DNA of 64,000 nucleotides from Sordariomycetes sp. S80-01Y. Its lineage: Eukaryota; Ascomycota; Sordariomycetes. Location of the stretch: assembly GCA_037042185.1 (NCBI GenBank), contig JAXQJY010000025.1, positions 620,001-684,000 on the forward strand, given 5' to 3'. Both the position numbers and the translations under genes were made by a program. Positions 1,849 through 56,141 of this stretch are shown one piece after another (position 1 is the stretch's first letter; the number at the start of each line of letters is the position of its first letter). Under the pieces are notes generated by a model. That model was not told the DNA's origin. It saw nothing but the letters and a program-made list of their open reading frames with translations, and made no database searches.

Positions 1849-4218
1849 ATGATGGGCCTGTCGACATTCGCCAGCGTCTCGCTGCTGGCGTTGCGCCTCT
1901 TCTCTTTGGAAGTCTCCGCTTCCCCTGCTGCTCAGGCAGCTGATACCCCCGACAACGGTGACGTTGCGCCTTCTGCATCCGAGTGGTGGTTTGCCAACAT
2001 CGAGCGAACCGGCGCCGTTCCCTTCGGCGATGCTGGCGCCGACTACCCTATCTTCCGCAACGTCAAGGACTATGGTGCTGTCGGTGACGGCACCACCGAC
2101 GACACCGAGGCCATCAACCGCGCCATCCAAGATGGCGGCAACCGCTGCGGTCTAGGCTGCGACTCCTCAACGGATACTCCTGCTCTTGTCTACTTCCCCG
2201 CTGGTACCTATGCTGTCTCCTCGCCCCTCATCCAGTACTACTACACCCACATGATCGGCGACCTCCACGATATCCCTACGATCAAGGCGCTCCCCGACTT
2301 CGAGGGCATGGCCGTCATTGATGCCAACCCTTACAATGGCGAGAACAACTGGTTCACCAACCAGAACAACTTCTTCCGTCAGATTCGCAACTTCAAGATC
2401 GATGTCACCGCTCAACCCATGACGGCCGGTACTGGTATCCACTGGCAGGTCGCCCAGGCCACTTCGCTCCAGAACATTGAGTTCTTCATGATCGAGGACC
2501 CCAGCGAGGAGAATGCCCAACAGGGCATCTTCATGGAGAACGGCTCTGGTGGCTTCATGACCGACCTCGTCTTCCACGGTGGCAAGTACGGTGCCTTCTT
2601 TGGCAGCCAGCAGTTCACCGCCCGTAACCTCACCTTCGAAAACTGCAACACTGGTATTTACCAGATCTGGAACTGGATCTGGAACTACCACGGCCTCACC
2701 ATCAAGAACTGCGGTACCGGTGTGGACCTGTCTGCTGGCGGCGGTGCTCAGACCGTCGGCTCCGTCATCATCCAGGATGCTACCTTCTCCGACACCGAAA
2801 TCGGTGTCAAGACGCTTTACAACCCCGACCAGACCGGCACCAACGGCACTCTCATCCTCGACAATGTCGACTTCTCCCAGGCTGTGCCCAAGGCTGTTGT
2901 CAACTCCGGTACTGATGCCACCATTCTTGAGGGCAACCAGGTCGTTGAGTCTTGGATCCAGGGCCGTGCTTATAGTGGAAGCAACGGCGAAGCCGTCCAA
3001 GGGCCTCGAACCGGACCCAACAAGCCTGCTGTTCTCCTCGACGACTCGGGCAAGATTTTCGCCCGCAGCAAGCCCCAGTACGCTGACGTCCCCGCCGCCA
3101 AGTTTATTTCGGTCAAGGCCGCCGGTGCAAAGGGTGACGGCCAGACCGATGACACTGCCGCTATTCAACAGACTTTCGACAACCTTGCCGAGGACGAGGT
3201 CGCCTTCTTCCCGCACGGCGCCTACATCATCACTGACACGGTCGAGGTGCCCGCGAACATCAAGGTCGTTGGTGAGATCTGGCCTATGCTTATGGCTGGT
3301 GGCGACACCAACTTCCAGGACCAGAAGAACCCCAAGCCTATGCTTCGCGTTGGCAAGCCTGGTGATGTCGGCAACGTTGAGATTTCCGACTTCATGATCG
3401 AGACCAAGGGTCCACAGCCTGGTGCCATCCTGATGGAGTGGAACGTCGAGGGTGCCTCCAAGGGCTCTGCTGGTCTGTGGGATGTCCACTTCCGTGTCGG
3501 TGGCTCTTCTGGAACCGAGCTGCAGTCCGACAAGTGCTCCAAGACCCCCGAGGAGACGACCTCGCCTAACCCGGAGTGCATTGGTGCATTCATGCTCATG
3601 CACGTCACCGCGTCCTCCAGCATCTACATGGAGAACACTTGGTTGTGGGTTTCCGATCACGAGCTCGATCTTCCCGACTTCAACCAAATCAACATCTACA
3701 ACGGTCGTGGTATTTTGATCGAGTCCACCAAGGGTGCCTGGCTTTTCGGCACCGCTTCCGAGCACAACGTTCTTTACAACTACCACCTGCAGGCCGCGCA
3801 GAACGTCTACATGACCGTCATCCAGACCGAGACCGCCTACTTCCAGGCCAACCCGGACGCTACCGTGCCCTTCGATTCCAACCCCGACTACTACGACCCT
3901 GACTGGGCCAACTGCGACGGACCCAAGTGCAAGAAGACCTGGGGTCTCCGTGTCATCGACTCGAGCGACATTCTCTTCTACGGCGGTGGCATGTACAGCT
4001 TCTTCGAGAACTACACCCAGGAGTGTCTCGATACGGAGGATTGCCAAGTCAACATGGTCGACATTGTCAACTCGGGCATCAAGATGTACGGAGTCAACAC
4101 CAAGGCCTCGGTCAACGTCATCTCGTCTAACGGCGAGGGGCTGATGACCCACCTTCCTGACAACGAGAGCATTTTCTGTGCCACTCTCGCCTTCTTTGAG
4201 ATGGCTGGTGATTCTTAG
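1849..4218 (+). CDS. Secreted glucan 1,3-beta-glucosidase, GH55 family
   Basis: Predicted exo-beta-1,3-glucanase acting on laminarin-like glucan outside the cell (cell-wall remodelling, or attack on other fungi or stored glucan). The frame gives 789 residues without introns, the usual GH55 size. Residues 1 to about 25-30 form a hydrophobic signal peptide ending near ASP/AQA. Two copies of the Pectate_lyase_3 signature mark the two halves of the tandem beta-helix fold: DYGAVGDGTTDDTEAI near residue 74 and AAGAKGDGQTDDTAAI near residue 424. The upstream ATG of an ATG-ATG pair is taken as start. The frame ends at TAG 4216-4218 but stays open with coding-like codon use for 62 more codons to TGA 4405-4407. 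That extension is Ser/Thr/Pro-rich, so the true C-terminus may lie at 4407 (see findings). Family assignment is firm; substrate detail is inferred from family. Confidence 0.93.
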   Translation: MMGLSTFASVSLLALRLFSLEVSASPAAQAADTPDNGDVAPSASEWWFANIERTGAVPFGDAGADYPIFRNVKDYGAVGDGTTDDTEAINRAIQDGGNRCGLGCDSSTDTPALVYFPAGTYAVSSPLIQYYYTHMIGDLHDIPTIKALPDFEGMAVIDANPYNGENNWFTNQNNFFRQIRNFKIDVTAQPMTAGTGIHWQVAQATSLQNIEFFMIEDPSEENAQQGIFMENGSGGFMTDLVFHGGKYGAFFGSQQFTARNLTFENCNTGIYQIWNWIWNYHGLTIKNCGTGVDLSAGGGAQTVGSVIIQDATFSDTEIGVKTLYNPDQTGTNGTLILDNVDFSQAVPKAVVNSGTDATILEGNQVVESWIQGRAYSGSNGEAVQGPRTGPNKPAVLLDDSGKIFARSKPQYADVPAAKFISVKAAGAKGDGQTDDTAAIQQTFDNLAEDEVAFFPHGAYIITDTVEVPANIKVVGEIWPMLMAGGDTNFQDQKNPKPMLRVGKPGDVGNVEISDFMIETKGPQPGAILMEWNVEGASKGSAGLWDVHFRVGGSSGTELQSDKCSKTPEETTSPNPECIGAFMLMHVTASSSIYMENTWLWVSDHELDLPDFNQINIYNGRGILIESTKGAWLFGTASEHNVLYNYHLQAAQNVYMTVIQTETAYFQANPDATVPFDSNPDYYDPDWANCDGPKCKKTWGLRVIDSSDILFYGGGMYSFFENYTQECLDTEDCQVNMVDIVNSGIKMYGVNTKASVNVISSNGEGLMTHLPDNESIFCATLAFFEMAGDS

Positions 4219-4407
4219 GGAGTCGACCCACCTTCGCCTCAGGGAAACTTGACGGCCCCGTTCTCGTCGCTTCCCTCGTCCCACACATCGTACGGCTGGC
4301 CCTCGCCGTCCCCGATTATCGTCGAGGAAGAAGGCCAGCTCTGTGCTACTGGGAGGGTGGTCTACATCTCGGTCACTGTCACGGCATCCCCGTCATCGAC
4401 GGCATGA
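4219..4407 (+). other. In-frame open extension after the GH55 TAG stop
   Basis: Directly after the TAG, the same frame reads 62 sense codons and then TGA. Third positions are mostly G or C, as in the gene body. The predicted segment starts GVDPPSPQGN and ends VTVTASPSSTA, a composition common in C-terminal tails of secreted fungal proteins. No splice donor with a branch site was found that would remove the TAG in frame. It may be a lost tail, a readthrough or edited extension, or chance. Confidence 0.5.
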
Positions 4408-4872
4408 ACATGAACATACGCATCACAATGTACATACACTAGCTGCTCCTCGGAGCCGACACTTTTTTTTGATCTCTATGGTTTCTTCTTCACGGACTTT
4501 CTTGGTATGATTCTATCTTAGGGGAGATTGTTGAGGGGACGCACACAAAAGGGAAATGGGTATACCATGTGATAGGGTCACTTGGGAGTGGCTTGCCTGG
4601 AGGCAGCCTCGGGTGATCAGATACCAATGAATGACAGAAACGTGAAAACCCCTCTTCTCCAATTGACACGTGATGTTTATGCAGACGGTATCTATTGATT
4701 TTTCTCAGGCGCAATGCGGGCTCCGAGTGCTCCGCAGACCGGCGCCCATTGATTCAGCCTCCTCGCAGTATGTGACGTCCCTTGTCCTTGGCAGCCCGTG
4801 ACGGCTCCCCGTCCGCTGGACCCCCATGAGCTGGCACACCTGCGCGAGGTCGGTAGGCAGCCCCGCTGCCGT

Positions 4873-4932
4873 CGGAGGAGGAAGAAGAAAGTGAAGAGGA
4901 CGAGGACGAGGACGAGAAAGAGGAGGAGGAGG
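4873..4932. repeat. GAG/GAC purine tract
   Basis: Imperfect GAGGA/GACGAG repeat of about 60 bases outside any confirmed gene. One plus-strand frame reads it as Glu/Asp. Confidence 0.6.
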
Positions 4933-6232
4933 CACTGCCTGGGCCTTCGCTTGCGGGTGCAGGTCCTGCGGTTGTGGATGACACCCTCTCGTTGCTGCGT
5001 CGTAAATACCGTGACCGGAGGAGGGTGGGCAACCTGCAGGAACGGAGAATTAGGTCCGGTACTTTTCGTTGTTGTGCGAGAGGAGCCAGGGCAAGCTGGC
5101 TGCGGTGGCGTCAGGTCGTACGGGCATGAATGAGCGTGCGGTCCAGCCCCAGCTTGGAAAAAGCCCACCGCGTGGCGCCAGAAAAAAGGGGGAGAAGAGA
5201 CCGGCCCAGCTCAACTTGAACTCGGTGCGGCCCCCTTTTCCGCTCCCCGGACAACCAGCCAGCCCACCACGGACGTAGGGACTCGGAGTCGCCAACGTAG
5301 GTTCGCACAGGTGGTCTGGAAGGCTCCCACGGTGCTCACTTGGCCGTGACGAAGCGCTGCGTCCTTCTGGTCCCGCGCTGCTCGCGAAGGGCAGACCGTC
5401 CGGGCGGACGTCGAGCTTGCAGTCCAAGCCGTCTGAGTCGTGCGAGCATGGCTGCGCCCTCAAATGTCCATCTCGTCCTGCCGCCAGCTCCTTACTGGCG
5501 CACGGCTGGCCGTTCCACCGCACCGTTCCGTCCGAGACGTGCGATCAGGCGCTGGGGTTCGAGGTCAGCGGGGGTGGAGGTCGAGGCTGTCCGGACATGG
5601 CCGCGATGGTACGAGGTGGCGCTTCGTCGCAGGGAATATCTTACGGCGATGGGGAGCGCGTGAAGCCCAGGTGGGAAAGGCAGCATCGAGGCGAGAAGAC
5701 ACAAGGCGACAAAGGGCGGATGGGAGACTCGATATGGGCTTCCACATCGGTCAATGCGAAAACCCTCCCCGGTTCTCAACCAACACACCGCTCCGCGCCT
5801 GGGGGGGAACGCTTGGCCTTCCCCAGCGGATCGCGCCGCTCCACGGCCAGGAAGCGCGTTGGCTGTGGGTATAGTAGTGAAGTTGTGAACAACAGCTCTC
5901 GGCCGAGTCAGCGCGGCTGGCCTCCCATGCTCGATGCCGCCTCGGCTATCTCACCTCTGACGCAAAACGGATCGGGACGAGGGGGTGGGAGTGGGCACCC
6001 GTCTGGAGACAGCTTCGACTCCATCAGTGGCAACTGCCGGGGCGGCACGCTGGCGCTGGTGGGCGCAGGCTGCATGCAACGATCGCCAACCGCGCGGGCC
6101 AACCGACTCGTTGGGATGGATGAGGAGCATCGCCACGCGGTTCGCTTCTTGGGTTGCATGTCTAGCGCGCGCACTGGCAGGGCTGGCAGCCGGGCGGTTG
6201 ACCTGTCTAAGTATTGTGGCTAGGGTGGCGCA

Positions 6233-6283
6233 CTAATGCTAATGCTAATGCTGGTGCTTGCTGATGCTGATGCTGATGCTGCA
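6233..6283. repeat. GCTAAT/GCTGAT microsatellite
   Basis: Imperfect hexanucleotide/trinucleotide repeat: GCTAAT units followed by GCTGAT units, interrupted by GGTGCTT. It lies about 120 bases beyond the 3' end of the transcription factor gene. Confidence 0.7.
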
Positions 6284-6404
6284 GCGCTTTAGCTGCGCTT
6301 TCCTCTCCTGTCCTATGCGTACTCTTGGCCGCGGACCGCCTCTATTCGTCCTCATCTACTGCTTGCACCCAGATCTCGCTCCGTGCCCCGCAACTTTCTC
6401 CGTA

Positions 6405-8910
6405 TCACTGAACTTCTGAGTTGTGTTCCCTCAATATCTTCTCCAGCCGACTTGAGTCCGCATCCTTCTTGTTCCCCGACTCGAGCGGGTATGCCGAGTA
6501 CACCCTTTGTCCAAGCATGCTTCTGTCGTCCAGCATATCCGGCCCTATGTGTGCTCCAAGGAGGTTGAGATCCTCCGGCATCTGCCTCTCGAGGAGCAGC
6601 TTGCATATCACCCCGGCAATGTGCACGTGCTTCCCTTGATGCGCCAGCCCTCTCAGGCACAGCACCAGCGTCGAGCGCATGTGCTCGCGCGAGTCACTTT
6701 CAAGCGTGTCTGCGCTGCCCGCCACGCGCGACTCCATGGCTATATTGCACATGTTAGTAAGGAATCCCGTCAGGTGGCCCTCATAATACTCAAACGAGTG
6801 CCGGACGTAGTGCAGGCGGATGACGGTTTCCAGATTGATGATGGCCAGCGGCAAAATTTCGGCGGCCGCGCGCCGCGCGGAGCTCACCAGAGAATTGCTG
6901 GCTGTTGGGCCATCGATGCTGTCTTCTGATATGCGCATGCGCGAGAGTGTAATGAGCGCGATGTGATACTCCATGCTAGCCAGTGTCAGCTGGGCCGCTC
7001 CGGCCAGAGCGGGGCAAGCAGGCAATGGGATGGGGGTCCCTGAACTTACTGCATGGCGAATTGGGCTGGCCAGATGATGTTTTTCGGTAATAAGGAAACC
7101 GGAAGCCCCAGGTACCACGCCTTGAGCTGGTCTCTAAACTCCAACCATCGGTCTGCCGGCAGGCTTCTCGACCCCTTGCTGAAGGCTAGCGCCGCAATGT
7201 CGTTGAGAATCACCTTCAGCATGGATGCCGCCCTGAACAGATGCCCGTAGTCTGTCGATATTAGGCCTTCGTGTAGGGGATATTGCAGATCTAGGTCCCC
7301 GTACAATTTTGGACGTTCATCTGGCTGGGGCAAAGGGGCTTGAGGGGGCGAGTCCATCAGACCTGGCCGTTGGTAGTGGAAACCAGCGATACTGGAGTTT
7401 CCATCGTTAGCACGGGTGCAAAGATGTCGAGACAAGACGGCTGGATTGACGTACGTTGCGTGTTGGAAGACGGTCCAGGCAGTGAAGAGCCGTGCATCGG
7501 CCAGCCCTGACTCTTCGGCGTCGACTGACTCCATGGAATCGAAAATTCCCAACTTGCGAGCAATTTCGACCGCTGAAGCAAGAAACGGCAGCCCGAGCAG
7601 GTCGAGGCCGTTGTGGGCGTAAGCCAAGTGCAACAACGTCGCGGCTTGCACCCGCACGAGGCTCACCGATTCCGCCTGGAACTCCCAGAGTCGTTTAGCC
7701 TCCGCGAGGAAGCGATAGCCCAAGGTGTGCGGATCCCAGTATCGGGGGCGGTTGGGGACGCCGTAGTAACAGTGCTGTATGCGTCAGCCACAGCGCGAAA
7801 CGAAGAATTCGCAAGGAGGGGTAAAACGTACACATGCCTCTGCCATGAGCGCATTGACGAGCAACGGTGAGCAGAATCTCCTGTCCCCGTCGACCAAGGC
7901 CTGCAGAAACGTATCCTTGTGGAATACCGGGAAGCCAGGGTATTCTTGCAGAAGGTAGGCTGACAGTATCGAGACGAACAGCTCGTTGTCCGGAGTGACC
8001 TGCGTCCACCTCGTCACGTCCACCAGTCCCAGTCTGGGATCGACCAGCTTGGCCGCGTGGTACGGCCTCAGGTACTGCGGAGGATACCTCTTGGCCAGGT
8101 CTTCGAGTTCATCCTGCTGTCTTTGCTGCTGCTGTTGCTCATCACCAGCTTCCGACTGCTGACGGTCCTCTGCATGTATAGCCTCATACATGACGCTTCC
8201 GAGGTAAGCGTTGCCGGACCTCTGGATGGCCGCAGGCATTTGTGTGCGGTAGGGGAAGTCGAATCGCAACCTCGTCTCGGGGACCAGGGAAACCTGCAGT
8301 AGGAGATCGCCGTCCTGGATCTGCCTGACGATGGTGGCCACGTCGGCGCCCATGCGGATGCGTCGAACGATGTCGTAAGCCCGGTTTTCGGTGCCGGTGC
8401 TGAGGTATTTGTACAGCTCTTTGAAGACATTCTTCTCATCTTCCACCTCCTCCAGGCGGCGCTTGAGGGCTTGGGAGTTTGTCTCGGCGGAGGAGAGGGA
8501 TTGGTAGGTGCATTCCGAGCGTGTTCTAACACAAGCTGCGCATTTGGGTCTGTCTCCCGAGCACTGGGCTCGTCAGCATGGCAGGGCATGGAAGGGCAGG
8601 GGCATGGCAGAGGTTTTACCTTGGTCCGTCTTCGTCGGCAGGTCTCGCAGGCCACACGGGTGAGCTGAGTCCTCGGTGGCAGCGGGACAGACGCGGCATA
8701 GCCCGGCCCCGGACCCAGCCCAGCCGGCGACGGTCCCGCGGGCGGCAAATGGCCGCCTCCGCTGAGTGAAGACGAGGAACTCGACCTCGCTTTCGAGGAT
8801 GTGGCCCCGGAGCCCAGCGAGCTTGAGGACGGCAGGCTGGTCCTGGCAGGTTGTATGTCGGGCAGGGGGCGTCGTTGGCGATCGCTCGGGTCAGCAGGGA
8901 ATTCCGACAT
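6405..8910 (-). CDS. Zn2Cys6 fungal-specific transcription factor
   Basis: Nuclear DNA-binding regulator; target pathway unknown. Five exons were joined by eye: 8910-8620, 8563-7832, 7774-7455, 7391-7050, 6975-6405. They give 751 residues ending in TGA. Introns are 56, 57, 63 and 74 bp with CTGAC or CTAAC branch sites. Splicing restores a complete zinc cluster with cysteines at about residues 88, 91, 98, 105, 108 and 115. A short linker follows, then a glutamine-rich run (DEQQQQQRQQDELEDL) and a fungal_trans middle region with the typical sequences PVFHKDTFL, FHYQRPGLMDSPP and HMEYHIALITL. The 63-bp intron keeps frame and could be overlooked; removing it restores the HAT-IAGFHYQRP join. The N-terminal 80 residues are Ser/Pro/Gly-rich and disordered. 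General layout is like NIT4/NirA-type regulators, but orthology is not claimed. Confidence 0.85.
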
Positions 8911-11208
8911 TGGAAAGGACGGTTCTCGCTTGGCAGGCGCAAAAAGAGGGCGGGGAAATGAAAGGGAACCGTAGTAACTTAGGCAGTATAATGAGCACTA
9001 AGTAAGTCGAAGCAACAGTGGACTCGTGAGCGCGACACGTCCAATGATGAAGGGTCTGAGCAGGTGCAGCAACATGGCCTATACTAGCAGCGATCCGGTG
9101 AGCCAGGCCGCCGCCGCGGCGTTGGTGGGCTGGCTGGCTGGCTGGGCTGGGCTGGGCTGCCAGGCTCCCCAGGCTCGAGATGCTGCAGCTTGTACCCGTA
9201 GTCGCGGAAACCGTGGATGGTGGTGCCGGGCACTGGCAGTTGCGCCACGCAGGCGGTTAAGGTAAGGTAAGGTAGCCTGAGGTGAGGTGAGCACGGCTGC
9301 GGCTGCTGAGTTGTGTGAATTGGTTCGTGGGTCATGGGTCCGAGAGTCGTGGGTCGTGGGCGAGGTGCCTGTCGCCAGTCGTCGCCGATACGCGGGAGGG
9401 TCTGGACCTCTTGAGGCCATCAGTCCCGGCCTACGCTGCCTCGACGTGCTGGTACTCGGCCTTTCAGTCGGATGCCATCGTGATGTGGCGACGCGCGACG
9501 AGGGAATCGCGCTTAAAAGTACCTGGGACTTTTCGTCGTAGGCTACTAAAATAGGTACCTATGATTGCCACTAGGTACACGGCATGGCTGCCCTGTAGGC
9601 CTGTTTCGTCAGCCATCAGTATGTATTCAAATCTCGGTCCGCCTTAATGCAGTATTGGGGATTTTCTGACTTGCCTCTGACTGAATGCCATGCCGATGCC
9701 GATGCCCATACACTCCCCGCCCTCACACGATGATCGCGCAATCATATGTTATACGTACCAAATTACCACCGGCGACCGAACCGGCAGAGGCCACAGTGAA
9801 TTGCCATCTCGATCAGCGTGACATCACCTCCCCCAACTGAAGCCCCTCCAAGCCCCCATCGTTGTCAACCGTCCCCTTCGCTGGACCACCTTTTCCTCGA
9901 ATGAAAAGTTCTTTAGCCGTAGATGGGTAGAGTACGACAAATTCATAGTCAGCGCTCAGGTACGCGTGGGACTTGAGATGGTGGCGAAATGCGGTTGGCA
10001 ACGGGCTGTGATTCGGCCGCTGCATTCGGGGTCCAAAGGCTCGAATACCATCTGGCTCCTGTGGCACTTTCTTCCTGTTGCTATGCTTGGACCGAGCTGA
10101 CCCAGGATATGGTAGTAATTCTGTACCTCTCATGTAGCGCAACTCGAGAAAATTGAGGGATCAGAGATGGCAACGGTGACCTCAGCGTCCACGCATCGAA
10201 GCGAGGACACCCCAAGCCCGTCTCGAACACTGAGGTACTCAATAAGGGAGCCTTACCTTCAGCGCATGACTTGGGTATCCGGAGTCATCCATTCACGCGC
10301 ATGCCACAATGGCTCCGGGGTCGTGCCTGGGGCCAAGCTCAAAGTCAAGACCTACCTTGTGGCAAGGCAAATGATGAAGACGAAAGTTCGTACTAGCGAT
10401 GCTGGACGAATTGAGGCTGCAGAGCACTTGCACCCAAGTCAGTGCATTCTATAAGGATGGATGCTGGGTGTGGTGAGGTGAGGTCCTTGCGCGAAGCATT
10501 CCCTGCTGCCCTGGGAACCAAGGCCCAAATCACAACCTACAGTCCCCTATTCTCCAGAGCGACCGCTTCTGCTTCATGCTTAGACCACCGGCACCTCGAG
10601 CCCTTATATCTTTATCTCCAGAACCGGCAAAATCAGCCTAGGCCGGATCGTGTTCGAGGATGTAACTCTGGTTGGTTTCCGTCGATGAGGGCCACGGAGA
10701 GCCTAGCGAGCAGTCGAGCAGTCCTGCTTCTCGCGCCCAGTCTTTTCGCAAATGGCGCCCGTTGCGGCCATGATACCACCTCTACCCAGCACATACTCAA
10801 CATGAAGACGAGTAGAGCACTAGCAAAACGAACCGCGCGTCCCGAACCTTCATAGATTCCGAGCAACGCTTCGCAAGTTGGCGCCGGCCGCAACTTCCCC
10901 GACCCTCGCACAACGCGTCCGCGAACGCTGGGCAGACCCCGATGTCTTTGTCGCAGTCGTGATGGAGGGATAGATCACCAGATCCCAGGAATGCCGTCCC
11001 AGCCCACTGAGCACGTCAGTGAAGCCCTTGCCTGGCATTGCTCCCCGTCCTGCTACGAGCCGTGGAGCAGCAGGATGTTGGCGGCCGCCGCAGAATACTG
11101 ATGAGCTTCCAGAGAGAAAAATTACCAAGATGCTGGCACCATCCGCAAACGTCGTCGCATTCAAGTCCGTGTCATTTTCGTCGCGTTCGAATCTTTCGCT
11201 CGAGACTT
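8911..11208. other. Intergenic region between the two transcription factors
   Basis: Probable promoter of the 6.4-8.9 kb regulator plus the 3' flank of the next one. It contains GGCTG-type repeats near 9127-9160, GGTAA/GGTGA short repeats near 9258-9290 and a TAGGTACCTA-like palindrome near 9553. A 106-codon minus-strand frame at about 9813-10133 has no recognisable domain and was not annotated as a gene. Confidence 0.45.
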
Positions 11209-14476: not shown

Positions 14477-16827
14477 CGCCTCAGTGGAGGGGGAACGGGG
14501 GCTGGCATGCCGCGAAGGTATGTAGAGAAAGACGAGGGGGGCGTTGTCTGACAGCAGCAGGGGAACGGGCGCCCCGTGTTATATCATTGACGATGGGAGC
14601 GGGCTGGAGATGGATGGAGCTGGCTCCGGGTCGAGCTGGAGCTGGTGCTGGCGCTGGTACCGGTGCTGGGCAGTGAGCATCCATGCTACGGCAGCTTGCC
14701 TCGATGGAGCACAGCGTACCAGGTAGCCGTGGGCGACGGACAGGCTGGCACAGGCTCTGGTTGGGACGAGCTCTGGCTGGCACAGGCATGGGTCGAGCAC
14801 TCAAGGTGGACGAGGAAAGCTGGTCAAGGGCCCGGCCGACCCTGGCAGCCCTGGAGACCCTGGCGATTTGGTTCGGAGGGCGCTCCGAGAGACATTATTG
14901 GCTGGCGCGCTCCAACTGTGCGCTAAGAGCAGCTCGCAGCCACGCAGCCCTCAGGGCCCCGCCGCTGCCAGTGGCTGCCAGTGCCAATGCCAGGGCCGGT
15001 CACGAGTCTGAGCCTGAGCCCCAGCCTGAGGTCGTCGTCGTCGAGTCCTTCAAGCTGTCGGGTGCGCCTGTAGTTGGGGCAAGGTTGGGTAGCCCTGCCC
15101 AGTGTCCTTCCCTACCTTCAAGTTGCCACTGTGATAAGATATAGCAACTCATGTACGGTATGCAGCGCTTAGCTTTACTCGCCTACCAGGTGGGTAAGGT
15201 TGGGTAGTTAGTGCCAGCTACTCCAGGACTACGACAGTTGTGAGTCGTCGTAACACTGGTAGCAGTAGCAAGCGCCCTCTACCATGGTAGGTAACCAATG
15301 CATCTATCAGGCCTACTCCGGAGGAATTGAGAAACACTATCTGCTACTCTAGTAGTTGTAGTGCTAGTCGCCAGCCAGTGACTGTGCTGGCCTCTGCACC
15401 TGGCCCCAGGTTGCTCGCCCTTGCCGTGTGGTCCCGGCTCGAAGAAGACCCTGGAGCCTCATCAGAGCCGCCGCTAACAGGCTTAACCCCCTGGTTGCCG
15501 TGCGTTGCCATTACATCAGCATTCCTGCGCCGTCACAAAGAGGAAAGAGGCTCGCCGGAGCACCAGCGTTCACACACTGTATGTAAAGGTACGCCCAGAC
15601 CGCGCCGAGACGCAGGTCTCTGCATCTTTCCAATCACGGCCTCCCGACGCCCCTGGTACTAAGGCATCGACCGCCGGGAAGCAGGAGCCCGCAGCCAGCG
15701 CGGCCGGCGGGCAATCGTGCATATCCAATGCCGGGGGGGCGGAGGACCGCATCGTCATGATCCGAAAGTCTGATATCGAACTCAGTCACAATGCCATCAC
15801 CGCTACGCGCCGGCACCGCAGCTCCAATCGAGCCCGGCTGCATGTGATCGAGTGGCCACTGCTCAGCGGCCGCAGCAGCCCCGCCGGAGGCAGCCCCGAG
15901 GTGGCGACAACCGGAGAGCTTCTCGCTACACACTCGTCTACCTACATGCCAGTACGACCCCATCGTCTTCCCAGGCTGCCGTGCCCGTGGGAGTGCACAT
16001 GTGGCTGTATGTGCTCGACCATCGGACCTCGTGCTAGCTCTGCAAGCCTCTCAAGCCCCCTTTTGCAGGTGGCTCATTCGCCCCCAAACAATGAACTTCG
16101 AGAGCCTTCACTCCTGGCAAATCTCGTCAAAAGGAGCTCGCTCCTCACCAGAGGGTCTGATGGCCAGGGTTGCATTCTCCATCTCCGAGACAAGAGCCCT
16201 GATGCACCATGACGAGGGCGTAGCGTCATGTCCGAGATTCGCCATTATCTACCCCATTTTACACGTCAATGATATCTGGCTTTTGACTTCAACGACCCAA
16301 CCTCGCAAGCTTCGCAACGTGTTCGTCATTTGTTTGCCGTCCGCGCATGCTCCTAAATGCAGGGGTCTTTCCTTTTCCCTTTTCTCCTTGGTGGATTTGA
16401 TTCTGCTCTGGGGGTCTGACATAGTGGGACGCCCTAATTGCCTCTCCATCTCGATCGTCATTCTCTTGTCGCGAAACCCCCCAACATAGGTCAGCTCAAC
16501 GATACAAGAAGCCCATCATGACTGTCCAATCTGTTAGATCGTGCAAGTTGCGTACTAATGAGAAGACAAAAGGGCCCGAGGCTCGATCTAGTTGATTTAG
16601 AGGTTACCCCTGGATTCATCCAAAAATAGAAATGTACACAATCCAACCAAGAGCTCCACTCCACGCCCAATGCAGTGCTCCTGTGCCAACTCCCGCTTCC
16701 CAATACGCGTACTCGATACTGAAAACTAACAATAATGCATCCTCTCATATCCATCTTTTCTAGGTACTGTCATGCTCAACGAGCGTCCATGTTAACTCTC
16801 TGTGTGACTGGACGGTGCTTCGCTGCC
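14477..16827. other. Intergenic region with short repeats
   Basis: No gene supported. Around 14585-14670 there is a GGAGCTG/CTGGTGCTGG-type imperfect repeat, and the rest is GC-rich with many short overlapping frames. It covers the promoter of the 11.2-14.5 kb regulator and the 3' flank of the DIP2-like gene. Confidence 0.45.
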
Positions 16828-43525: not shown

Positions 43526-45683
43526 ATGCCGACTCGTCCCAGGGCAAGCCTGACGCGGTGGCTCCCGGCTGAGGAGCCAACGCAGCGTCGAACACATGAG
43601 CAACCCGAACTCGAATTCGCCTCGCCGTCATGCGAGGGTTTTCGTGAGGACTTCTGCAGCAACGCAGATCGCCTCAGGACGGGCTCCACGCAAGTGGACG
43701 AGTCATCTAACGTAGGAAGCTTACTCATGCTTTAGAAAGTAGATAGCTGACCTCAAGTAGACTCTCAAAAGTCCTCACGCCGTTAGCGATCAGAGCCATA
43801 TTGCGCAACAGGCTGATGTCAACTCTACGGTCGGGTGTTCTCCAGTCGGAGTCTCGCATCCCATTCCAGTAGAGACCGCCGCCCTCGCCGGCGTAGAGCC
43901 GGTGGAAACGTCTAATCCTACGCCACGGACTTCTCTTAGTGTCATCGATGGTCATACCAATGTCGATGCCAATCTATCCCGGACCTCGTCTGCAACCGAA
44001 AAGAGCCCGACAAGAGAGCCCCTCGTCAAGGCGGAAGACAAGATTGCTTGCAACAACGATGCCATGGAAAGGTCCAATAGCCGTGTCACTGACATTGACA
44101 AATCAGATGTAGCCGTTCATGTTTCCCTTGGAAAGCATTCAGTTCGTTGCAACCCTTTGCAGGAAAACAGCAACGGCCAATGTCCTAGCGTGTGGTCCTA
44201 TGGCTCAGACAAAGCAGAAAAAAACGTCGCAGTGCCATCTCAAGCTCAGCTACCAACTGCGTCAATTCCTTCGAACCCTATCGGAACGAAGAAGATGTCC
44301 CTCTCGCCCCTAACCTTCGTCCACACATACGCGAACGGCCAGGATGCTATCCTCCCTGGTTTTGAGCCCTAGGTTGGCAGCAAAAGCAGTGTCAATGGGT
44401 CTAACACGAGCCTGAACGAGGAGATCGTCGGTGCTGGCAGCGACAGTGGATGGGATAGCGCCGAGACCGTTGCATGGTTAGTCAAAATGAAGAACAGTCC
44501 GCTCGACCACCTCGGACTTACGGTACCCCATGAGCGGCTTGAGGCTCTGGCCTCTTTGCCCATCGACCCAGGCTCAGGTTGTTGCGAGGAAGCGGTTAAC
44601 TACCCGAGCACATTCCCTAACCCCGAGAAACTCCACACAGAGCTTGAACGGAAACGAACCCAGTATAGCTCTAGCCGAAACATAGAGCAGGAGATGGTAG
44701 CTCGAAAGAGGATCGAACAGATCAGTAAGAAGCAAGAGGCCACAAAACGAGAGGAGATGCAACCACAAGCTACTGCGGTCCCCGGCCGTGGTGTGAACTG
44801 GCCCAAGGCGGATACAATGAGACCAGGAACCAAGAGAAATGAAAACAGCAATTCCAAGGTATCGGTCAACCTACATCAGATCAATTGGCCCAAGGCAAAC
44901 TGCAAGGTCGTACCAGCGACAGAGGACCATTTTGCTGAGATCGCGGAGATCATCCACCTTGAATCTGGAGCCAGGGACCGCGTGCCTCAAGTCCTCGATG
45001 GCGGCAAGATCACAGTCAAAGACATTGTTCACATTGGAGACATGTGCAGGTTGCATTACCGGCCTTTTATCGTCGCGATCAACGAGTCAGCGGAATTGAT
45101 GACCGATCGAGCAAGATGGCCCGAGCAAGCCCACGATGAATTTGCCGAGTACATGGCTTGGAAGAGAGATCAGCCAAAGGAGAAGGCCGCCGTGGTGGGT
45201 TTTGCTTATGTGACCGAAGCGAAAGTTGGCTTCCTCGACAAGCCTGACCCTGGCGCCCGCAATGTCGGTGCGATCCGGCTAGTAGTGCACCCTGGCCACC
45301 GTGGCAAGAAATATGGCAGTGCTCTGCTCGATCGGATCTGTCAGTCCACAGCACCTTATCATCGCAGTCTCGTTGATCATGAGTGGAGGGGGCTGGACGA
45401 GGGCAACTTGGTCTACGAACGGAATGTCGCCTACAACCAGCGACAGTACTCGCACGTCTTCATCGAAGTCCACACAGCGGGCGGTGACCGCGAAATGAAG
45501 TGGAAGAGAAAAATGTTGGAGAAATTCGATTTCGTCAAGATTGCTCGCTTTGACAAGATGTTAAGGACAGATCGTGGCGAGGATAGCCAAGATCTGAGTC
45601 TGGAAGTCTGGCGGATGGAGACCAGCCAGGCGATGGTGAACATGGAGCCAGGGAGGTATCTCGAGAAGAGAACGCGGTTCTAG
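43526..45683 (+). CDS. GNAT N-acetyltransferase-domain protein with internal TAG
   Basis: Exon 1 is 43526-43711 (MPTRPRASLTRWLP start). A 49-bp intron with branch CTGAC ends at 43760, and exon 2 is 43761-45683. Exon 2 is one continuous frame of 640 sense codons except for one TAG at 44370-44372 (codon 266 overall). The C-terminal half carries a GCN5-related acetyltransferase core: VVPATEDHFAEIAEIIHLESG, VVGFAYVTEAKVG and the acetyl-CoA-binding loop VHPGHRGKKYGSALLDRI. The N-terminal 370 residues are disordered. If the TAG acts as a stop, only a 265-residue acyltransferase-less protein is made, or a shorter protein starting at Met 44487. The TAG lies in a hairpin loop (see findings). An in-frame 54-bp intron ending at the TAG is possible but would need a poor GTCCAC donor. 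Acetyl acceptor unknown. Confidence 0.75.
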
Positions 45684-47000: not shown

Positions 47001-47685
47001 GAAGACCAATGATGAAAATTGAGCGATCGACGATGCCGATGTTGACACTAGCATGAAATCGACGGCATCGTCCCGACAACCGCGGGTCTGGAGCATGAAC
47101 TCGCCTATGGGACGTCATGGAGGCAATACTGGGAAGAAATAGAGTTCAAGGCAAAGTGGAGGACAGGGAATGAGGCACTGAGAGAGCGAAGTCGGCGGCG
47201 CGGGGTTTTGGGTTTGTCGCGAGGCAGACGCGCGGGTTGCGTGCCAGTGTAAACAAACCTCAGACTCCGGGTCGGAGCTAGCTGCAGTGCTCACAGATAC
47301 GGCAGTACTGCGTAGAGGGCGTCAGAGTTCCTACCAAGGTTCCAATGTCTTAACGAGGGCAAGGAGCTAATATATGACGAGAAAAAGCACCAAGACACAG
47401 CATGAGTTATATTATCGTAGCGTTGCATTCATGTCATGGCAGGTGCATCCAGACTGCTGGGGGGGGAGGGAAGAGAGCGTCCCTGGTGCGCGTTTCTAGT
47501 CTAGTTGCGACATGGTGCTTGTTGATGGACAGGGGTGTCCCCAAAGCCGAGAGAAAGCAGCATCATAACCTCATCCCACCTCCACGACACCACCACGACA
47601 ACAACCACTTCCCGTCTCTGCGGCGCAATTGACGCCTGTCCTACCATTTTGTATCCTCAATAGCTGGCAGAGAACTGCGGCCACC
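47001..47685. other. Intergenic region upstream of the DUF4045-like gene
   Basis: 3' flank of ARL2 and promoter/leader of the next gene. The ATG at 47686 has a strong CCACC context. No other feature seen. Confidence 0.5.
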
Positions 47686-50600
47686 ATGTCCGACGAAGTC
47701 TCCCAGTTCCTCGAGTCTGTCGAGCGGCTGCGCGGCCAGCAGATCGAAGAAGACGAGGTCCGCGCCCGCGAGCTTGAGGAGTACCTGGCGGCCAAACGAG
47801 AACGACAGGCCCGGCGAGAAGGTCAGTTTTTCTCATCCCTATTCTATTTCCCCCACCAATGCAGACCACGGCCCACACTGCTCTCACCTGCGCCTGACTT
47901 CAAGTCTGGCGTTGCCGCGGCGGCCACGTTGGACAGCAGATTCACCTCGCGCCACGACAACCAAAGTTTGCTTCTCGTAGCCTCGCAACTCAATGCAAAG
48001 CCCCTGTAAACACGTTTCTGACTCTCTGGAACCTTCAGAGCGCGCTAGGTCCATCTCACCCCAGAAAAGCTCACCTGCAAACACGCCCTCCCCGCGTTCG
48101 AGCCGTCAGTACAGCCAGTCCACCTCCACCCGTCTCACCGAACCGCCGCAAAAGCTCGACACCCCAGCCACCACCGCTCGCGCAGAACCCACCGAGCCCC
48201 AGTCCGAACGAATACGCGAAGCCTCGACCGGCCTCGACGGTGATAGCGACGCAAGTATGCTTTCGTCTCCCACAAAGGAGAACGAGTCTCCGGATGATGT
48301 CAAGCGGACGCCACCGGCCAGATCAGGGACCCTTTCGTGGCAGCGCCGGCCGCAGAGCAGGGGCAACACGCGACCTTTGAGCATGCTGGCCGCACAGAAT
48401 GCGACCCAGCGATCTCTTGGTGTGTCACAGGACAAGGAGCCAAGTTCAGCTGAAGCTACGGAGACGGCTTTCTCCCGGGATCAAATTGCACAAAACCTGG
48501 GGGCCAAGGACCCTTCTTGGTTTCGGCAGACGTCCGATAGGGGGCTGGGGTCTGCTGCGTTCAGGAAGAACCAAGTCGAGGACGAGGAGAGATCTGACGT
48601 TGCGTCTGGAAGGGCTCAGTTGCCCGGCATGTCGGATGCTTCTAGGGATAGATCTCCGTCAGCTGCCAGTGCAAGCACTGCCATCTCTGGACGAGGCGGA
48701 CTTGCTTCACCCCTGCCTCTAGACAGCGCTTCGCGCTTCGAGCCTCCCACTGAAGAGCCACCTCCAAGCGAAGAACTTCATGGCTCCCCAACCGGTCGAC
48801 TTTCCCCGAGCCGCTCTACATCCCCAACGAAAGGCATGGGTGGCTTTGTGCAAAGTGCCATGCTGAAGCGCTCTGACAGTGTCAAGCGCTGGAGTGTGCA
48901 GACTCCTGGGCTCAGCCGAGCCGATACTGTCACATCGAACAGGGGAAGCGTGTATGGGCGAGAGCGACCGACAAGTATTTCCTCACGCGAGCACACCCGG
49001 TCGCCGGCTTCAAGCAGACCAACTTCCCGGCATGGGAACACAAGTGGTGATGCGACACCTAAAGCTTCTCAAGCTGGCTCACCAACCGAATCCGAACACA
49101 ACAAGGAGGACGCGGCACTGCCAGTTAGCCCCTCCAAGACGATGGACTCCCGCCGGTGGTCTCCGACAAAGTCAAGCTGGCTTGACAGTGCACTCAACAA
49201 GCCCGAGTCGCCAAAGCCGCAGCTCAAGCCTTTCCAAACTCCAGAGCCGTCATGGAAAGCGCAATTGAACAAGACCAAGGCCGACAAGACCGGAAGCGAA
49301 TCTACCCGCGGACCGTCCGCATCACACAAGCATCAAGTCAGTATCGGTGGACTCATGAGATCTTCCCCTATGGGGGCGGGAGTCAAGTCCAACACCACTG
49401 ACCTGGGTGGTATCTATTCTCCACCCGCCAGGGGTAATAGGCCCTCAATGGGACACCGACCATCACCCAGCTTGTCAAGGTCTACCACCGATCCAAGCGA
49501 GGACAGAGAAACCAACGAGGCATCTGAAGCCCCGGCGCAGCCCAAAGAAGAAGACGCTGCCGAGGAGACTGCTAAGAGGGCTTCTGTGGCTAGTCCACCT
49601 GCTGTCAAGCCCAAGCCGGAAACCCCGCCGAAGAAAGACTTCAGGTCTACGCTGAAACCACGGCCAGCGGACAGCGGAGCGGATAAGAAGGCTGAGCCCG
49701 AGTTCAAAAACGCCCTAGGCAACCTGCGACGGACCAAGACGCAGAATTACGTTGCTCCAGATGAGCTCAAGGATAACATCATGCGAGGCAAAAGCGCTCT
49801 GAATACCACCGGGGGGCCACAAAAGTCCGTCATCAAAGATGAGTTCAAGGACGCAATCCTCAAGAAGAAGGGAGATTTCAAAAAGGTTCAGGAGGAAGGA
49901 AAGGGCGTCACCCGAACACAGACTTCAGCCGCAGAGAAGCCTGTTCCGGAGGGACTCGCTCGTCGCGCCGAACTAGGGAAACCTGTTGGCTTTAAGCGGG
50001 ACGCCGAGCTCGTTTCGCAAGGGCTGCCCAAGAAGGGCGAGTCGCCAAAGCCGACACCTGCTCCGAAGAGGATCTCAAGCCAGTCCAGTGTTGGCACAAG
50101 ATCACCTTCAGCCTCTGACAATCCCCCCTTGGTGGTGGAAAAGCCTACGAGGGTGTCTACTGAGCCTGATGTGTCCTCGTCTCCTTCACCTCGGCCGTTG
50201 CCAAGCCTGCAGAAGGAAACAAGCGCTCCCTCAAGGCTTGGTCAAGGCTCTGGCCCTGGTGGAAAGCTTGCTGGTCGTTTCAACCCAGCCTTGGCAGGGA
50301 TACTTGCTAGGGGCCCTCCTTCTATGGCCACTGAAGGTGGCAGAAGCCCCGGCGCCTCTAGCACTGCATCACCAGCTGCGGATGAGCCTACGAAACCCGG
50401 GCCTCAGCTGACACACATGACCAAAGGTCGAGCGCGCGGGCCTAGAAGGAAAGCGCCAACAACCGTGGCAACGTCGCAACCCGCGTCATCGCCTGTGAAG
50501 GAAGACCTCAAGCCGGAGTCAAAGCCAAGTGAGACCGTGCCGCGAGCATCTCCAGTTCAATCTCCGAAGCCGGCAGTCCGATCTCCACCTCCGGAAGCCG

Positions 50601-52535
50601 TTGCTCCTCTGAAGATCGAAAAGGCCAACGGAACGACAAGTGGCACTAACGATCAGCCGGTACCTCTCTCGATCCAAAAGCAAGTGGCCAACAGAGCAGC
50701 GTCTCGTGACAGCCCTGCTCCCCTACAGACTGGCAGCAACATGAATGACCGGGAGCCCGGGTCCGCACCTAGGCCGCTCCCACTTCGTCGGCAACCTACA
50801 AGCCCTGAGAAGCCCACTGCTGAGCCTTTGTCGCCCATCAAACCTCACAAAACAGGAGGCGACGTCTCACAACCTGGCTCACCCAAGAAGCTTGATGTCA
50901 AGCGTATGTCAAAGTTCTTGGATGACTCAAACGTCGGTGACCCAAAGTCGGACACTCCCAGGGAGCCCGTCAAGCTATTTCACCAGCGGACTGGGTCGAG
51001 GTCGCCCGTGAAGAAGGACGTTACCCCCGAAATGGAGGCTACTTCGCCTACCAAGGTAGACAGCGAGCCAGTGGCTTCTGTCAGAGACTCCATGTCTCGA
51101 TACGGCAGTGCTGTAAAGTCACCAACACCACCCTCGAAACCATCCTTTGACAGGGACTCGCTGCCCAGCATGTCCAAGCCCAGCACGCCCAAGCCGCTAG
51201 GAGCTCGAGCCCTACCGAGCACCCCATCGCGCAGCCCGGCGAAGTCAACGGCAGTCGACTCACCAGCACCATCGCCGCGCAAGCAAGGAAACGAACTCTC
51301 AAACCTGCTAACGGACTTCTTCGGCTCTGATAGACCCAAAAGTGAGCTCAAGGTGGACCCTGCAGAGCTTCTGGCAGCTCGTCCCGGGGACGGTGTTAAG
51401 ATTACGACCCTCGGCATGCAGATGTTCCAGATCTCTGGGGATGGAAAGAAGTTGCCGATCCTCGCTGGCAATGAGCGTACGTTGTTCGAGCGCGAGATGT
51501 ATGTTTGCATTCATGAGTTCGAGAACGAGATGCGCAGGAAGCAGCTCGCCGTGTACTTTTGGGTTGGCGATGAGGTTTCAGAGTCAACTGCTGAAGACGC
51601 TCAACTATTCGCCCAGCGAGAGGCCAGGTCACTAGGGACAAGGCTCATCAAGCTGTCTCAAGGCAAGGAGACATCTGAGTTCTTGCAAGCTCTGGGCGGC
51701 ACCGTCATCAGTCGCCGCGGCTCAAGCAACAAGTACGACTCTCTCGCACCCAATATGCTCTGCGGTCGTCGCCATCTCAACCAGGTCGTTTTCGACGAGG
51801 TCGACTTCACGGCAGCCAACCTCTGTGCCGGCTTCCCCTACCTCATCAACAGTTCCGGGAAGTGCTACCTCTGGAAAGGCAAGGGCAGCAACGTAGATGA
51901 GCTGAGCTGTGCCAAGCTCACCGCCATGGAGCTCAGTCTCACCGGCGAGATCGTTGAGTACGAGGAGGGTGGTGAGCCCGACTCTTTCTGGGATCTCTTT
52001 GAATCCAAAGCCAAGCCTCACTCTGCGGATCACTGGCGGTTGAAGCCCAACTTTGGGAAGTACGGCAGCAGACTCTTCTGCTCAGACGCCGACTCTCGCC
52101 AGCAGGTAAGTTCCATTCCTTGTTTGTGACACGTGTAAATAACGAGCGCCCCAGATCTACGAAATTTCTCCCTTCAACCAGGCGTCCCTCTCGCCTTACT
52201 CAATCTACGTCTTAGACGCCTTCTTCGAAATATACATCATCGTCGGCTCCCACGCCGGCACCGCCTTCCCGTCCTTCGCCAACGCCCTCAACTTCGCGCA
52301 GGGCTACGCCATCCTCGCCGCGGGCATGGAAGACCGGCCCTTCGTGCCCGTGTCCACGGTGGTGCTGGAAGGCGTGCCGCGGGACTTGAAGCGCGTCTTC
52401 AGGAAGTGGGACGAGAGCGTCAGCCCGACCGTGGTGCGGGAAAAGGAGATGCCGACCAAGGGCGGCGGGCTGAGGAGGGGACGCAGCTTGAGGGTCGTGC
52501 CGCTCACCCAGGCTCTCCAGGCGCTTAGCGAGTGA
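47686..52535 (+). CDS. DUF4045-like protein with C-terminal gelsolin-type repeats
   Basis: Large fungal protein, probably linked to actin. Three exons: 47686-47821, 48039-52105, 52155-52535; introns are 217 and 49 bp. The product is 1527 residues. It opens with a charged helix (VERLRGQQIEEDEVRARELEE), followed by about 1050 residues of disordered Ser/Pro/Lys-rich sequence carrying motifs such as RRWSPTKSSWLDSALNKPE and SKHQVSIGGLM-like blocks that typify DUF4045 proteins. The last 400 residues are folded and gelsolin-like: MFQISGDGKKLPILAGNERTL, YFWVGDEVSESTAEDAQLFA, LYLINSSGKCYLWKGKG-like block and IYEISPFNQASLSPYSIYVLD. The family is fungus-specific; actin binding is inferred from the gelsolin fold. 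Convergent with the zinc-ribbon gene. Confidence 0.88.
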
Positions 52536-52952
52536 TCGGACAGAGCGGGTGTGCGAGACAAGTCCCGATTTGCAGGCGGACGGGTGTTCTTTTTTTTTTA
52601 CTCCTTTCTTGTAACGAATTTTACGGATGTACGTACACGAGAAGGCGGGGAGTTATTGTTAGAAAAGGGGCGCAGCGGTTGCATGAGAAAGGGACGACTT
52701 ATACGAGGTGTATTCATTTATCCTTCCCCTTTACGTAATAGCGAGCTCATATAACACACCGTTGACTTTCGGATCTTGTTTGATGAGCATCTGAGCGTAG
52801 CCGGAGAGGGGGATTAGAGCAAACGCGCGACCTGTTGACTTCAGGGGCCATGAGAGCGCGGTGCTTGAGAACGTATGGATACTTTCATCACTGCTCAAAC
52901 ACTACTGTCAACCAATGCTCCCATACCACGACATTCCCAACAGCCGTTCTGG
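52536..52952. other. Convergent 3' intergenic region
   Basis: 417 bp containing the 3' flanks of the DUF4045-like gene (+) and the zinc-ribbon/coiled-coil gene (-), including a poly-T run at 52591-52600. No gene seen. Confidence 0.5.
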
Positions 52953-55900
52953 CTACCCACCAAACCCACAGTTGCTCTCCTTCTCCAAATCCGTATTTAT
53001 CACCAAGTCGTCCTTGCCCCTCATGTGCAGCACAATCGTCAACCCCTCAATCCCAAACTCATCGCAATCATGTCTAGCCAGTGTCTCGCCCACGCCAACA
53101 TCTATCCTTCTCGTCGGGTGCGACTGTGCCAGTGCCCCCTGTGCCAGTGCCCCTTGTCGATCGTCCGTGGTGTGGTGAGAAGCCGCGTAGGAGGCTGCTT
53201 CGTGGTGCGAGGAGATTTCGGACTTGAGCTGCTCGACCTCCGAAGAGAGGTCCATGCACCGCGCACGCTATTCGCAAGTGTGATCTGGGGGCAGCACCGG
53301 TCGCGGGTTATGGATGGTAGAGAGATTTGCTTCTTTGCGAAGAATGTCCTGGCTGAGCACGCTTGATTGACGGTGACCAATGAATTGACGACGAGATTGG
53401 AGAAGATCTTCCGCGCTCTGCCTCGCAAGAGAATGCTCGAGATCACGCAGGCGCAGCCTTGAGGGAGTTGAGAACGACTGGTCGATATTTTGATCATGGC
53501 CATGTGCTTGATTGCCGTGGGAGGTGATGACATGCTGGGCGTTGCCCGTTTCTCCTTGATCAAAGACTAGACAGACTCCAGCTGATTCGTCGTGGGTGCT
53601 TGATGTTGCTTGAATAGCCTGGCTTGGGTGGCAATGCCCGCAATCATCGCCTTGTTCAGTGTATCCCTTGAGCTGAGTCTGGGTAGGCACGCGACTCAAA
53701 CTGTGGCGCCATTGAGGTACGGGGGAAAGTGGCTTCTTGGCCATATTCTGAACAATTGGTTGGTCAACCTTCCGTAAGTGTTGCCGCCATTGGGGCTGTT
53801 CGGACCTCTTTGCATCATGAGTATGCTCATCCTTTTCATGAGTCACCTTTCGCAGGGTGTGGTCGACCCATGGCGCCTTAGTAGCATGATCACTGTGCAG
53901 TTTCTTCTCATGCACAGGCTTTTCGATACGTTTCAGTCTTGGCCATTTCTCAGGCTTTGGCTCTGCAGAATCATGGCCTTCGTGATGCCGCAACTCCTCA
54001 AAGAGTCTGCAGTCCCTGTCTTTCGAGATTCTAGTCATCTCGTTTGTCGAGTATCTCGGCCTGACCTGGATACCATCGTCGTGGACCCAACGGATGGTGT
54101 TTCCAAGAGTATCGTCTCGGCTGCTGGTCCTGTTGAGCCATGCTTTCGGTGATGGTGGTTTGAACCTCGGTGACGCCGGTTTTGAAAGGGCCGTCTTGCG
54201 AGTCTGTTGTGTGGAGAAAGGCACTTCTGTTGCTGGAAGCTCAAATGTCGGAGTTTGTGGTCGCCATGAGTAGCTTCGGTGCCAGTCTTGAGCGCGTGAC
54301 ATCAAGTGGTCACCTACGGCTGGTGATTTTGGGCTAAGCTCTACATCGACCATGGGATCTTGAAGAAGGCTGTGTCTCGCGAGGCGCTGCTCCACGCCCA
54401 ATTGATCCACGGAGAGCGAGTGTAGACGTGATCGAGTTGGCTGCCTTTTGAGCGAAATTTTGTTGTCGATATCAAGCTCATGTAGTTCGAAGCAGGTTGG
54501 CTCGCCAACTTCGTCGTCTGCCAGAGAATGGACGCGATGGCCAGCGCTCTCTGAAGACTGTGCTTGTTCTTCCTGGGGTTCCGAAGCAAGTGTTCTGCGA
54601 GATGCAACTGTTTCCCCGTGGAGACTGCTCGAGCCTGCAGCAAGATGTTCGAGGATGTGCTGCGAATTATAAAGGTCCTCTCCATGATGGTACAGCTGAT
54701 GGATCTTCTTTTCCAAAGGATCTTCCATGGAGTCAAGACAGTCCCTTTGGTGGCCTCTGGCTGAGCTTTTGGTAGAAGAATCATCGCGGGACACTAGTTG
54801 CTCAGGGACACTCTGTTGACCGGAGTCGTCTCTGCTGTAAATCCGAGACTCACGTTGATCTAGTGCTGATGAAAGAACTAGGCGCAGCGGGCCCTCATGC
54901 GAGTACCCCATGTGTCTTCTTGGTACGCAATTTGATAGATGGGGAGATCCTTTTGCTTTCGCATTCATGTTTGAAGTTGTTGGGGGCAAGGCCCCTTTGT
55001 TGCGGTCCGCCTGTATGAAGGGGTTCTTGGCTACATGATCTGATATGTCAACGCTAGTCTTTCTGCGTCCAGGAAGTCCATTGTCAAGTCCCTCGAGAGT
55101 AGAGGACATGGGCTTAACGGGATCGTCGCGCGCCTCACTGCGGATGCTCACCCGAGGCGTTGAGGCACCATCATTAGATCTGTGTCGATGTGGATGAACT
55201 GCAATGGGCACAGTTGTGACCGGGTAGTGGGGGGCGCTCCTGTGCTCCGTTGATCCGCATCTGCCATCTCTGAAGCTTTCAGATTCTGTAATGTTTCCAA
55301 GCGACGGCGGCTCGAAGGGAGATTTCTTACTGCACTTCAGGCAGGAATCGTGACCACATGAACCACACTCCTTGCGATCAGGAACCATCAGATGGCAGGC
55401 ATGGCAAATCTTCACTTCCAGCTCGGAACCATGACGATGGCTGCTCCGGGCAGAGTCCTCAGACAGCCAGCCAAGGGGGGGTCTCACGCCGTACTCTTCA
55501 AACAGATCACGAGCATCCTGGCGGCGAGTATCAGAATTGGCGGCACTCGATCCTTGACTTTTGGGATGGGCGTATGGAGGATTGCATATTGACTCTTGTC
55601 GACTGATGCTTGATATACCTGTCCAATTGTGCTGACGCCGTTCGGGCCGCAGTGGCTGTTGCTTCTTGCTCGATTGCTCTCCGGCCAATAGCCCTATTAA
55701 AGAAGCAGGTCGAAGGATGTTGCCGTTATGCTTCTGTAGAGGTGAGTGCTGACTCTGGCCCATATGAAGCTGCTCAATCTTCGCTTTAGGCGGCTCCTCT
55801 TTCGGACCAGTTGGAGACGCCTCGCTGTAACTGTGGTGGGTGTAGTCGACCGAAGGTCCACTCTGCTCCCCAAGGAGCAAGTTCCTCGAAGCAGGTTTCG

Positions 55901-56141
55901 CGAAGCGCTGTTGTTCTGGACGTCGCCCCTAGCCAAGCGTCGTGCTTTCGCGTTCCCTCCCAACAGCAGAGTGCGGGTGGTCTTCGCTGGCGTCGGTTCG
56001 AGTGGAGAGCTGCCTCAGTTGTTGGATGCGGGACCCAACGATTCCAGATGGGATTCGTTCGTCTTGGACGGCATGTTGACTTTGCAAAGAGGCGGTACTG
56101 CGGGAGTGTGAATGGGAGAGGCTAGAAAGTGAGTGCACCAT
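52953..56141 (-). CDS. Zinc-ribbon and coiled-coil fungal protein with two internal TAGs
   Basis: One reading frame runs from ATG 56141 to TAG 52955-52953 (1063 codons). It is interrupted only by TAG at 55931-55929 (codon 71) and TAG at 53270-53268 (codon 958). The longest uninterrupted part alone would not begin with a good ATG. The protein is mostly disordered (Ser/His/Arg/Gln-rich). It has one likely zinc ribbon, CHACHLMVPDRKECGSCGHD followed by SCLKC, at about residues 240-270. After the second TAG a short coiled coil follows (MDLSSEVEQLKSEISSHH). I do not recognise a named family. Continuity of composition and frame across both TAGs indicates a single ancestral protein. Either the gene is decaying, or the TAGs are recoded (see findings). 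Confidence 0.65.

Follow-up and report, generated by a model that had tools for sequence, protein, structure and literature searches.

In perithecia, Tad2-Tad3 together with Ame1 deaminate the A of UAG codons, which are then read as tryptophan, as described in PMC11156358, where about 70 premature-stop genes are given for the whole Fusarium graminearum genome. PUK1 and 69 other PUK1-like premature-stop genes were described from this species, and the edited pair of codons in subdomain IX of PUK1 reads UAG-UAG in F. graminearum, UAG-UGG in Neurospora crassa and UGG-UAG in F. verticillioides (PMC4817773). Stop-loss editing of a canonical UAG is reported for 323 genes in F. graminearum (PMC4817773), and for 15 genes with peptide evidence in Sordaria (PMC6794485). 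The context preferences of editing span positions -2 to +4 (PMC9600606). A stable hairpin loop around the A is a preference, seen at 62% of the sites in F. graminearum. The cofactor Ame1 has a Met-Val pair (MV500-501), a position required for Tad3 binding, and a serine (S531) whose change to alanine (S531A) is tolerated in the F. graminearum protein (PMC11087585).

We examined a 64,000-nt stretch (the window; C8:620001-684000) of a 30.9-Mb genome in 16 contigs. Introns here are of the filamentous-fungus type (GT, a CTRAC branch site, and AG). The initial annotation had described four in-frame TAGs in three genes of the window, and had proposed that they are recoded by A-to-I editing of the mRNA. 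We observed that all four TAGs were present, at 4216-4218 (+), 44370-44372 (+), 55929-55931 (-) and 53268-53270 (-), but they were unequal in support, and the observation is confirmed only in part. The UAG lies within a frame that is coding on both sides clearly at 44370 and moderately at 53268, while this was not the case at 4216. TAG 44370 is the most secure premature stop and a true interruption, 53268 is less secure, 55929 is a possible but weak case, and 4216 is likely to be a normal stop. The features are as follows.

1849..4218, + strand: GH55 (exo-1,3-beta-glucanase type) gene of 789 codons, ending in TAG 4216-4218, probably complete
4219..4404, + strand: open 62-codon stretch after TAG 4216, a possible stop-loss extension, otherwise 3' non-coding sequence
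43526..45683, + strand: GNAT-domain gene in our own gene model (exon 1 43526-43711; intron 43712-43760, 49 nt; exon 2 43761-45683)
44370..44372, + strand: premature in-frame TAG, the best supported of the four, with coding flanks on both sides, no frame-keeping intron and 4/6 context positions
52953..56141, - strand: gene 3, running from its ATG (56141) to the final TAG (52953-52955) and encoding a protein that has a CxxC..CxxC..CxxC stretch
53268..53270, - strand: putative premature in-frame TAG, followed by a tail of 104 coding-like codons (52956-53267), with 3/6 context positions
55929..55931, - strand: TAG between a 70-codon stretch and an 886-codon frame, either a premature stop or the end of an upstream ORF, with 6/6 context positions

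TAG 44370 interrupts one coding frame. The frame is open for 203 codons before the TAG and for 436 codons after it, and the GNAT domain (Acetyltransf_1, E 2.9e-06, Pfam) sits 3' of the TAG. Only 0.1% of 2,000 shuffles kept the upstream 203-codon stretch of exon 2 open, and this stretch scored as coding (p=0.0005). The 38 codons from the TAG to the next in-frame ATG, which is only 114 nt further on, also scored as coding (p=0.002). No relatives of the GNAT part were seen in viral_contigs or genome_contigs, both of which are non-fungal collections.

Gene 3 has a core of 886 open codons (53271-55928), and its ATG (56141) stands in the context CACCATGG, 70 codons ahead of TAG 55929. The gene, its tail and its upstream stretch gave no Pfam match, and no relatives of gene 3 were detected in the non-fungal viral_contigs collection. 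An interruption of the coding frame by TAG 53268 is moderately well supported. The 104-codon tail was open in 3% of shuffles, and with the genome codon model it scored as coding (p=0.001), its own frame being the best of the six. Training the model on gene 3 itself gave p=0.036, and a reverse frame then scored better. Downstream of 68 control ORF ends (which include exon ends before introns), 7 of the 68 scored as high as this tail over 60 codons, and 3 of the 68 were open for as long. TAG 55929 is a weak candidate for a premature stop, its upstream codons resembling a leader. These 70 codons were open in 25.5% of shuffles, with coding p values of 0.32 (genome model) and 0.07 (gene-3 model). 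Since they do not score as coding, it is equally likely that the TAG ends an upstream ORF within the leader.

TAG 4216 is most likely the ordinary end of the GH55 glucanase, and at most a candidate for stop-loss editing. The gene has a Pect-lyase_RHGA_epim domain (E 2.8e-98, Pfam), and its product aligned with the solved homologue 5m5z (E 4.6e-290) up to residue 785 of 789, 2 residues before the end of 5m5z itself. As the alignment ends almost exactly there, this TAG is probably the natural stop. The 62-codon stretch beyond it gave no Pfam match; it was open in 35% of shuffles and had a coding p value of 0.012, with a reverse frame scoring higher. A divergent GH55 paralogue on another contig (L037, C1:304300-305100) has more than 100 residues beyond the usual C-terminus, which makes an extension past TAG 4216 possible but does not imply it. 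A 741-codon open frame runs antisense to the GH55 gene (window 2167-4392, -), and is most likely a codon-usage shadow.

Automated annotation tends to conceal premature-stop genes by false introns (PMC4817773), and introns ending in TAG were the main trap in our own searches. Three apparent TAGs in kinases, one in the window and the others on C9 and C12, were 3' splice sites, and a TAG within the long DUF726 gene was rejected as an interruption for the same reason. For the four TAGs, a consensus rule found no frame-keeping intron candidate spanning any of them, and the intron explanation was rejected on this basis. Within long ORFs, 29 of 947 positions had a candidate under the same rule. When applied to five TAG-ending control introns, it recovered two of them correctly (L034, L029); the remaining three were not recovered because they are 49 or 50 nt long, which is no multiple of three, and are unable to bridge a frame.

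We also evaluated RIP, which is unlikely as the origin of the interruptions. Among the best candidates scored, neither the GNAT gene nor gene 3 had a second copy. The RIP indices were 0.55/1.24 for the GNAT gene, 0.42/1.44 for gene 3 and 0.62/1.24 for the window, which are normal by the generally known cut-offs, and TpA/ApT did not rise in either gene (0.55 and 0.42). RIP damage was rejected on these two grounds. Two contig starts, L010 (C2:1-10000) and L019 (C9:1-10000), were RIP-like, with TpA/ApT of 1.22 and 1.13 as against 0.62 in the window.

The proposal had also relied on the UAG lying in a hairpin loop. This argument did not survive the controls. The A was in a loop at all four sites with flanks of 15 or 20 nt, at 2 of 4 with 30 nt per side (the published folding setting) and at 3 of 4 with 40 nt. 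Out-of-frame TAGs had the A in a loop in 59% of 556 cases (15 nt), 49% of 555 (20 nt) and 35% of 555 (30 nt), so the loops are at chance level. No site folded better than its shuffles: the z-scores at the four sites were -0.75, -0.23, -0.37 and +0.72, with 34, 78, 67 and 146 of 200 shuffles folding at least as well. On these base rates and shuffles we rejected the hairpins as evidence for editing at the four sites. The context preferences were matched at 6/6 positions at 4216 and 55929, 4/6 at 44370 and 3/6 at 53268. A score of 6/6 occurred in 2.6% of 6,719 TAGs, and the two ideal contexts belong to the two sites with weak coding evidence.

We further counted stop codons in 341,184 bases drawn from 38 sources, which were not random and overlapped in part (contig starts made up 13 of the 20 regions in one set). 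A codon-score scan of these 341 kb gave 23 intron-free candidates, comprising 14 TGA, 6 TAG and 3 TAA. Kinase matches with exactly one stop inside had 4 TAG, 3 TGA and 9 TAA (127 of 161 candidates scored). We also searched for single-stop bridges, i.e. two open stretches of at least 250 codons together, with at least 55 on each side of the stop. There were 115, and the 35 that were unshadowed and had no intron candidate comprised 20 TAG, 11 TGA and 4 TAA; nine of these were in the window (7 TAG, 2 TGA). We read 24 of the 26 bridges outside the window by eye, and they were mostly ordinary ends, leaders and antisense frames, so the TAG surplus among the bridges is no proof. The bridges notwithstanding, a TAG excess was not established by these counts, and the case for editing rests on the individual genes. 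For comparison with the bridges, the ends of 109 long ORFs had 39 TAG, 46 TGA and 24 TAA; reassignment of UAG to a sense codon was rejected, since TAG is the normal stop in 39 of these 109.

It had further been claimed that no TGA or TAA interrupts an otherwise open frame in the window. This agrees with the long bridges at 7784, 8573, 37036 and 46770, which have spanning intron candidates, but not with the scan, which flagged five intron-free TGA or TAA places (484, 14579, 42820, 56015 and 57168, all on the - strand); those at 14579 and 42820 are short open stretches among other stops. The label of a cluster for the four TAGs has no statistical backing. With about 70 such genes in the whole F. 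graminearum genome, two within 12 kb here are unexpected.

Do other genes of this genome carry the marks of the editing system? A search for kinase domains gave 140 matches (127 of 161 candidates scored), and seven had a TAG inside. Four of the seven were examined: three TAGs were 3' splice sites (L034, L035 and the kinase in the window), and one lay in a PUK1-like gene on C15 (L036, C15:3046500-3049500). The three other matches carry several stops each. The nearest solved structure to the C15 kinase is yeast CBK1 (E 8.6e-43). Its subdomain IX reads Cys-Asp-Trp-TAG-Ser-Ile-Gly, where CBK1 has Trp-Trp at the same pair (TGG-TAG versus Trp-Trp). This is the F. verticillioides state (UGG-UAG) of the edited pair, and from the match at this pair we infer that the C15 kinase is the PUK1 orthologue. 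Its TAG (L036 position 1764) lies in a hairpin with a z-score of -3.38, none of the 200 shuffles being as stable, and meets only 3/6 context positions. There is a second in-frame TAG at L036 position 824, upstream of the kinase domain and about 940 bp from the other (z -1.75). Under a looser rule, this second TAG falls within a 129-nt intron candidate whose branch site is poor; the stricter rule gave none.

The genome has three DUF726 genes. The copy on C13 (L031, C13:1431556-1432602) is Ame1-like, with Met-Val at the diagnostic position, 31 residues (counted by eye) before the position of the nucleophile. At this position the two remaining copies read Leu-Asn and Leu-Asp. In the C13 protein, Gly replaces the hydrolase Ser; this differs from the Ame1 of the described Tad2-Tad3-Ame1 complex, in keeping with the tolerance of S531A. 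A MAT alpha-box gene is also present. An asexual species without the editing machinery had been named as a finding that would speak against the proposal, and at the gene level this genome is not of that kind. SPO22, a premature-stop gene in Fusarium, had no stop in its matched domain here. Only one DNA-methylase locus was matched genome-wide (C16:2899019-2899888, in two stretches), with no stop inside; in F. graminearum, RID has been described among the premature-stop genes.

Together, these results favour, if by a limited degree, the known A-to-I mRNA editing of the sexual stage in this fungus, probably a Sordariomycete to judge by its Ame1-like and PUK1-like genes, with 44370 and 53268 as probable new premature-stop targets. 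For these two TAGs, editing is the most economical explanation. The recoding proposal is thus supported in part: in its favour are 44370 and 53268, along with a genome that has the cofactor and a known editing site, and against it are 4216, the hairpins and the missing TAG excess, with 55929 weak.

Ordinary loss of function would make 44370 and 53268 unedited nonsense mutations of the strain or species, i.e. young pseudogenes or truncated alleles. A lone stop in an otherwise open frame is just how a young nonsense allele looks, and TAG should be easily reached from common codons. We consider this unlikely, as both genes have a TAG while their frames, 640 and about 1,060 codons long, showed neither TGA or TAA stops nor a frameshift, there is no RIP signature, and elsewhere in the genome a TAG occupies a proven editing site. 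The TAGs could also be artefacts of the gene models, with 53268 the true end of gene 3, 55929 the end of a leader ORF, and 44370 lying between two genes or in an oddly spliced intron. The leader-like score upstream of 55929, the 7 of 68 ORF ends that equal the downstream score of 53268, and the several apparent TAGs in the genome that are 3' splice sites all point this way. Against it, the flanks of 44370 share one frame and score as coding as far as the stop itself, with 114 nt to the next in-frame ATG, frame-keeping intron candidates are absent at all four sites, and the tail of 53268 reaches p=0.001 with the genome model, which makes such an error of modelling quite improbable.

Two further explanations compete with editing of the transcripts. 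Programmed translational readthrough of UAG could draw on the C that follows the UAG at 53268, a mildly leaky context, but the readthrough motif of the CAA-UUA type follows none of the four TAGs, and we regard readthrough as very unlikely. A sequence or assembly error at the TAGs has hardly any probability in our view: there is a single assembly, but one of its TAGs coincides exactly with a site already known in other species, so a TAG within a coding frame can be genuine in this genome.

If editing is the correct explanation, vegetative cells would make truncated products from the GNAT gene (44370) and from gene 3 (53268, perhaps also 55929). Deamination of the UAG adenosine by Tad2-Tad3-Ame1 in fruiting bodies would let the codon be read as tryptophan, giving the full-length protein. 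TAG 4216 would stay the normal end of the GH55 gene, at most edited as a stop-loss site. The editing of the GNAT and gene 3 transcripts, its stage and the functions of the proteins are our inferences from the genomic sequence. Premature UAGs may even be denser here than in F. graminearum, with several per gene (two in gene 3, and two about 940 bp apart in the PUK1-like gene), but this is doubtful. Several UAGs in one transcript would need several editing events, and the stops could jointly act as a stringent sexual-stage switch.

In comparison with targets of the PUK1 type, the window sites share an in-frame UAG in an open coding frame, with U before and G after the A, and the PUK1-like gene on C15 carries its TAG at the very Trp pair of subdomain IX that is edited in PUK1. 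The window sites, as candidates, differ in having no stable hairpin like that of the PUK1-like site, and gene 3 may have two separate TAGs. As for stop-loss editing, TAG 4216 resembles the described cases in being a terminal UAG with 6/6 context positions and an open 62-codon extension, but the extension is not clearly coding.

We found no description of the GNAT gene or of gene 3 in the text of the open-access papers searched. The phenomenon of editing is already known, and these two genes would add to its members. Internal positive controls for this genome are provided by its PUK1-like and Ame1-like genes. If edited, the GNAT acetyltransferase-like gene and gene 3 would count as new sexual-stage switches in a further Sordariomycete.
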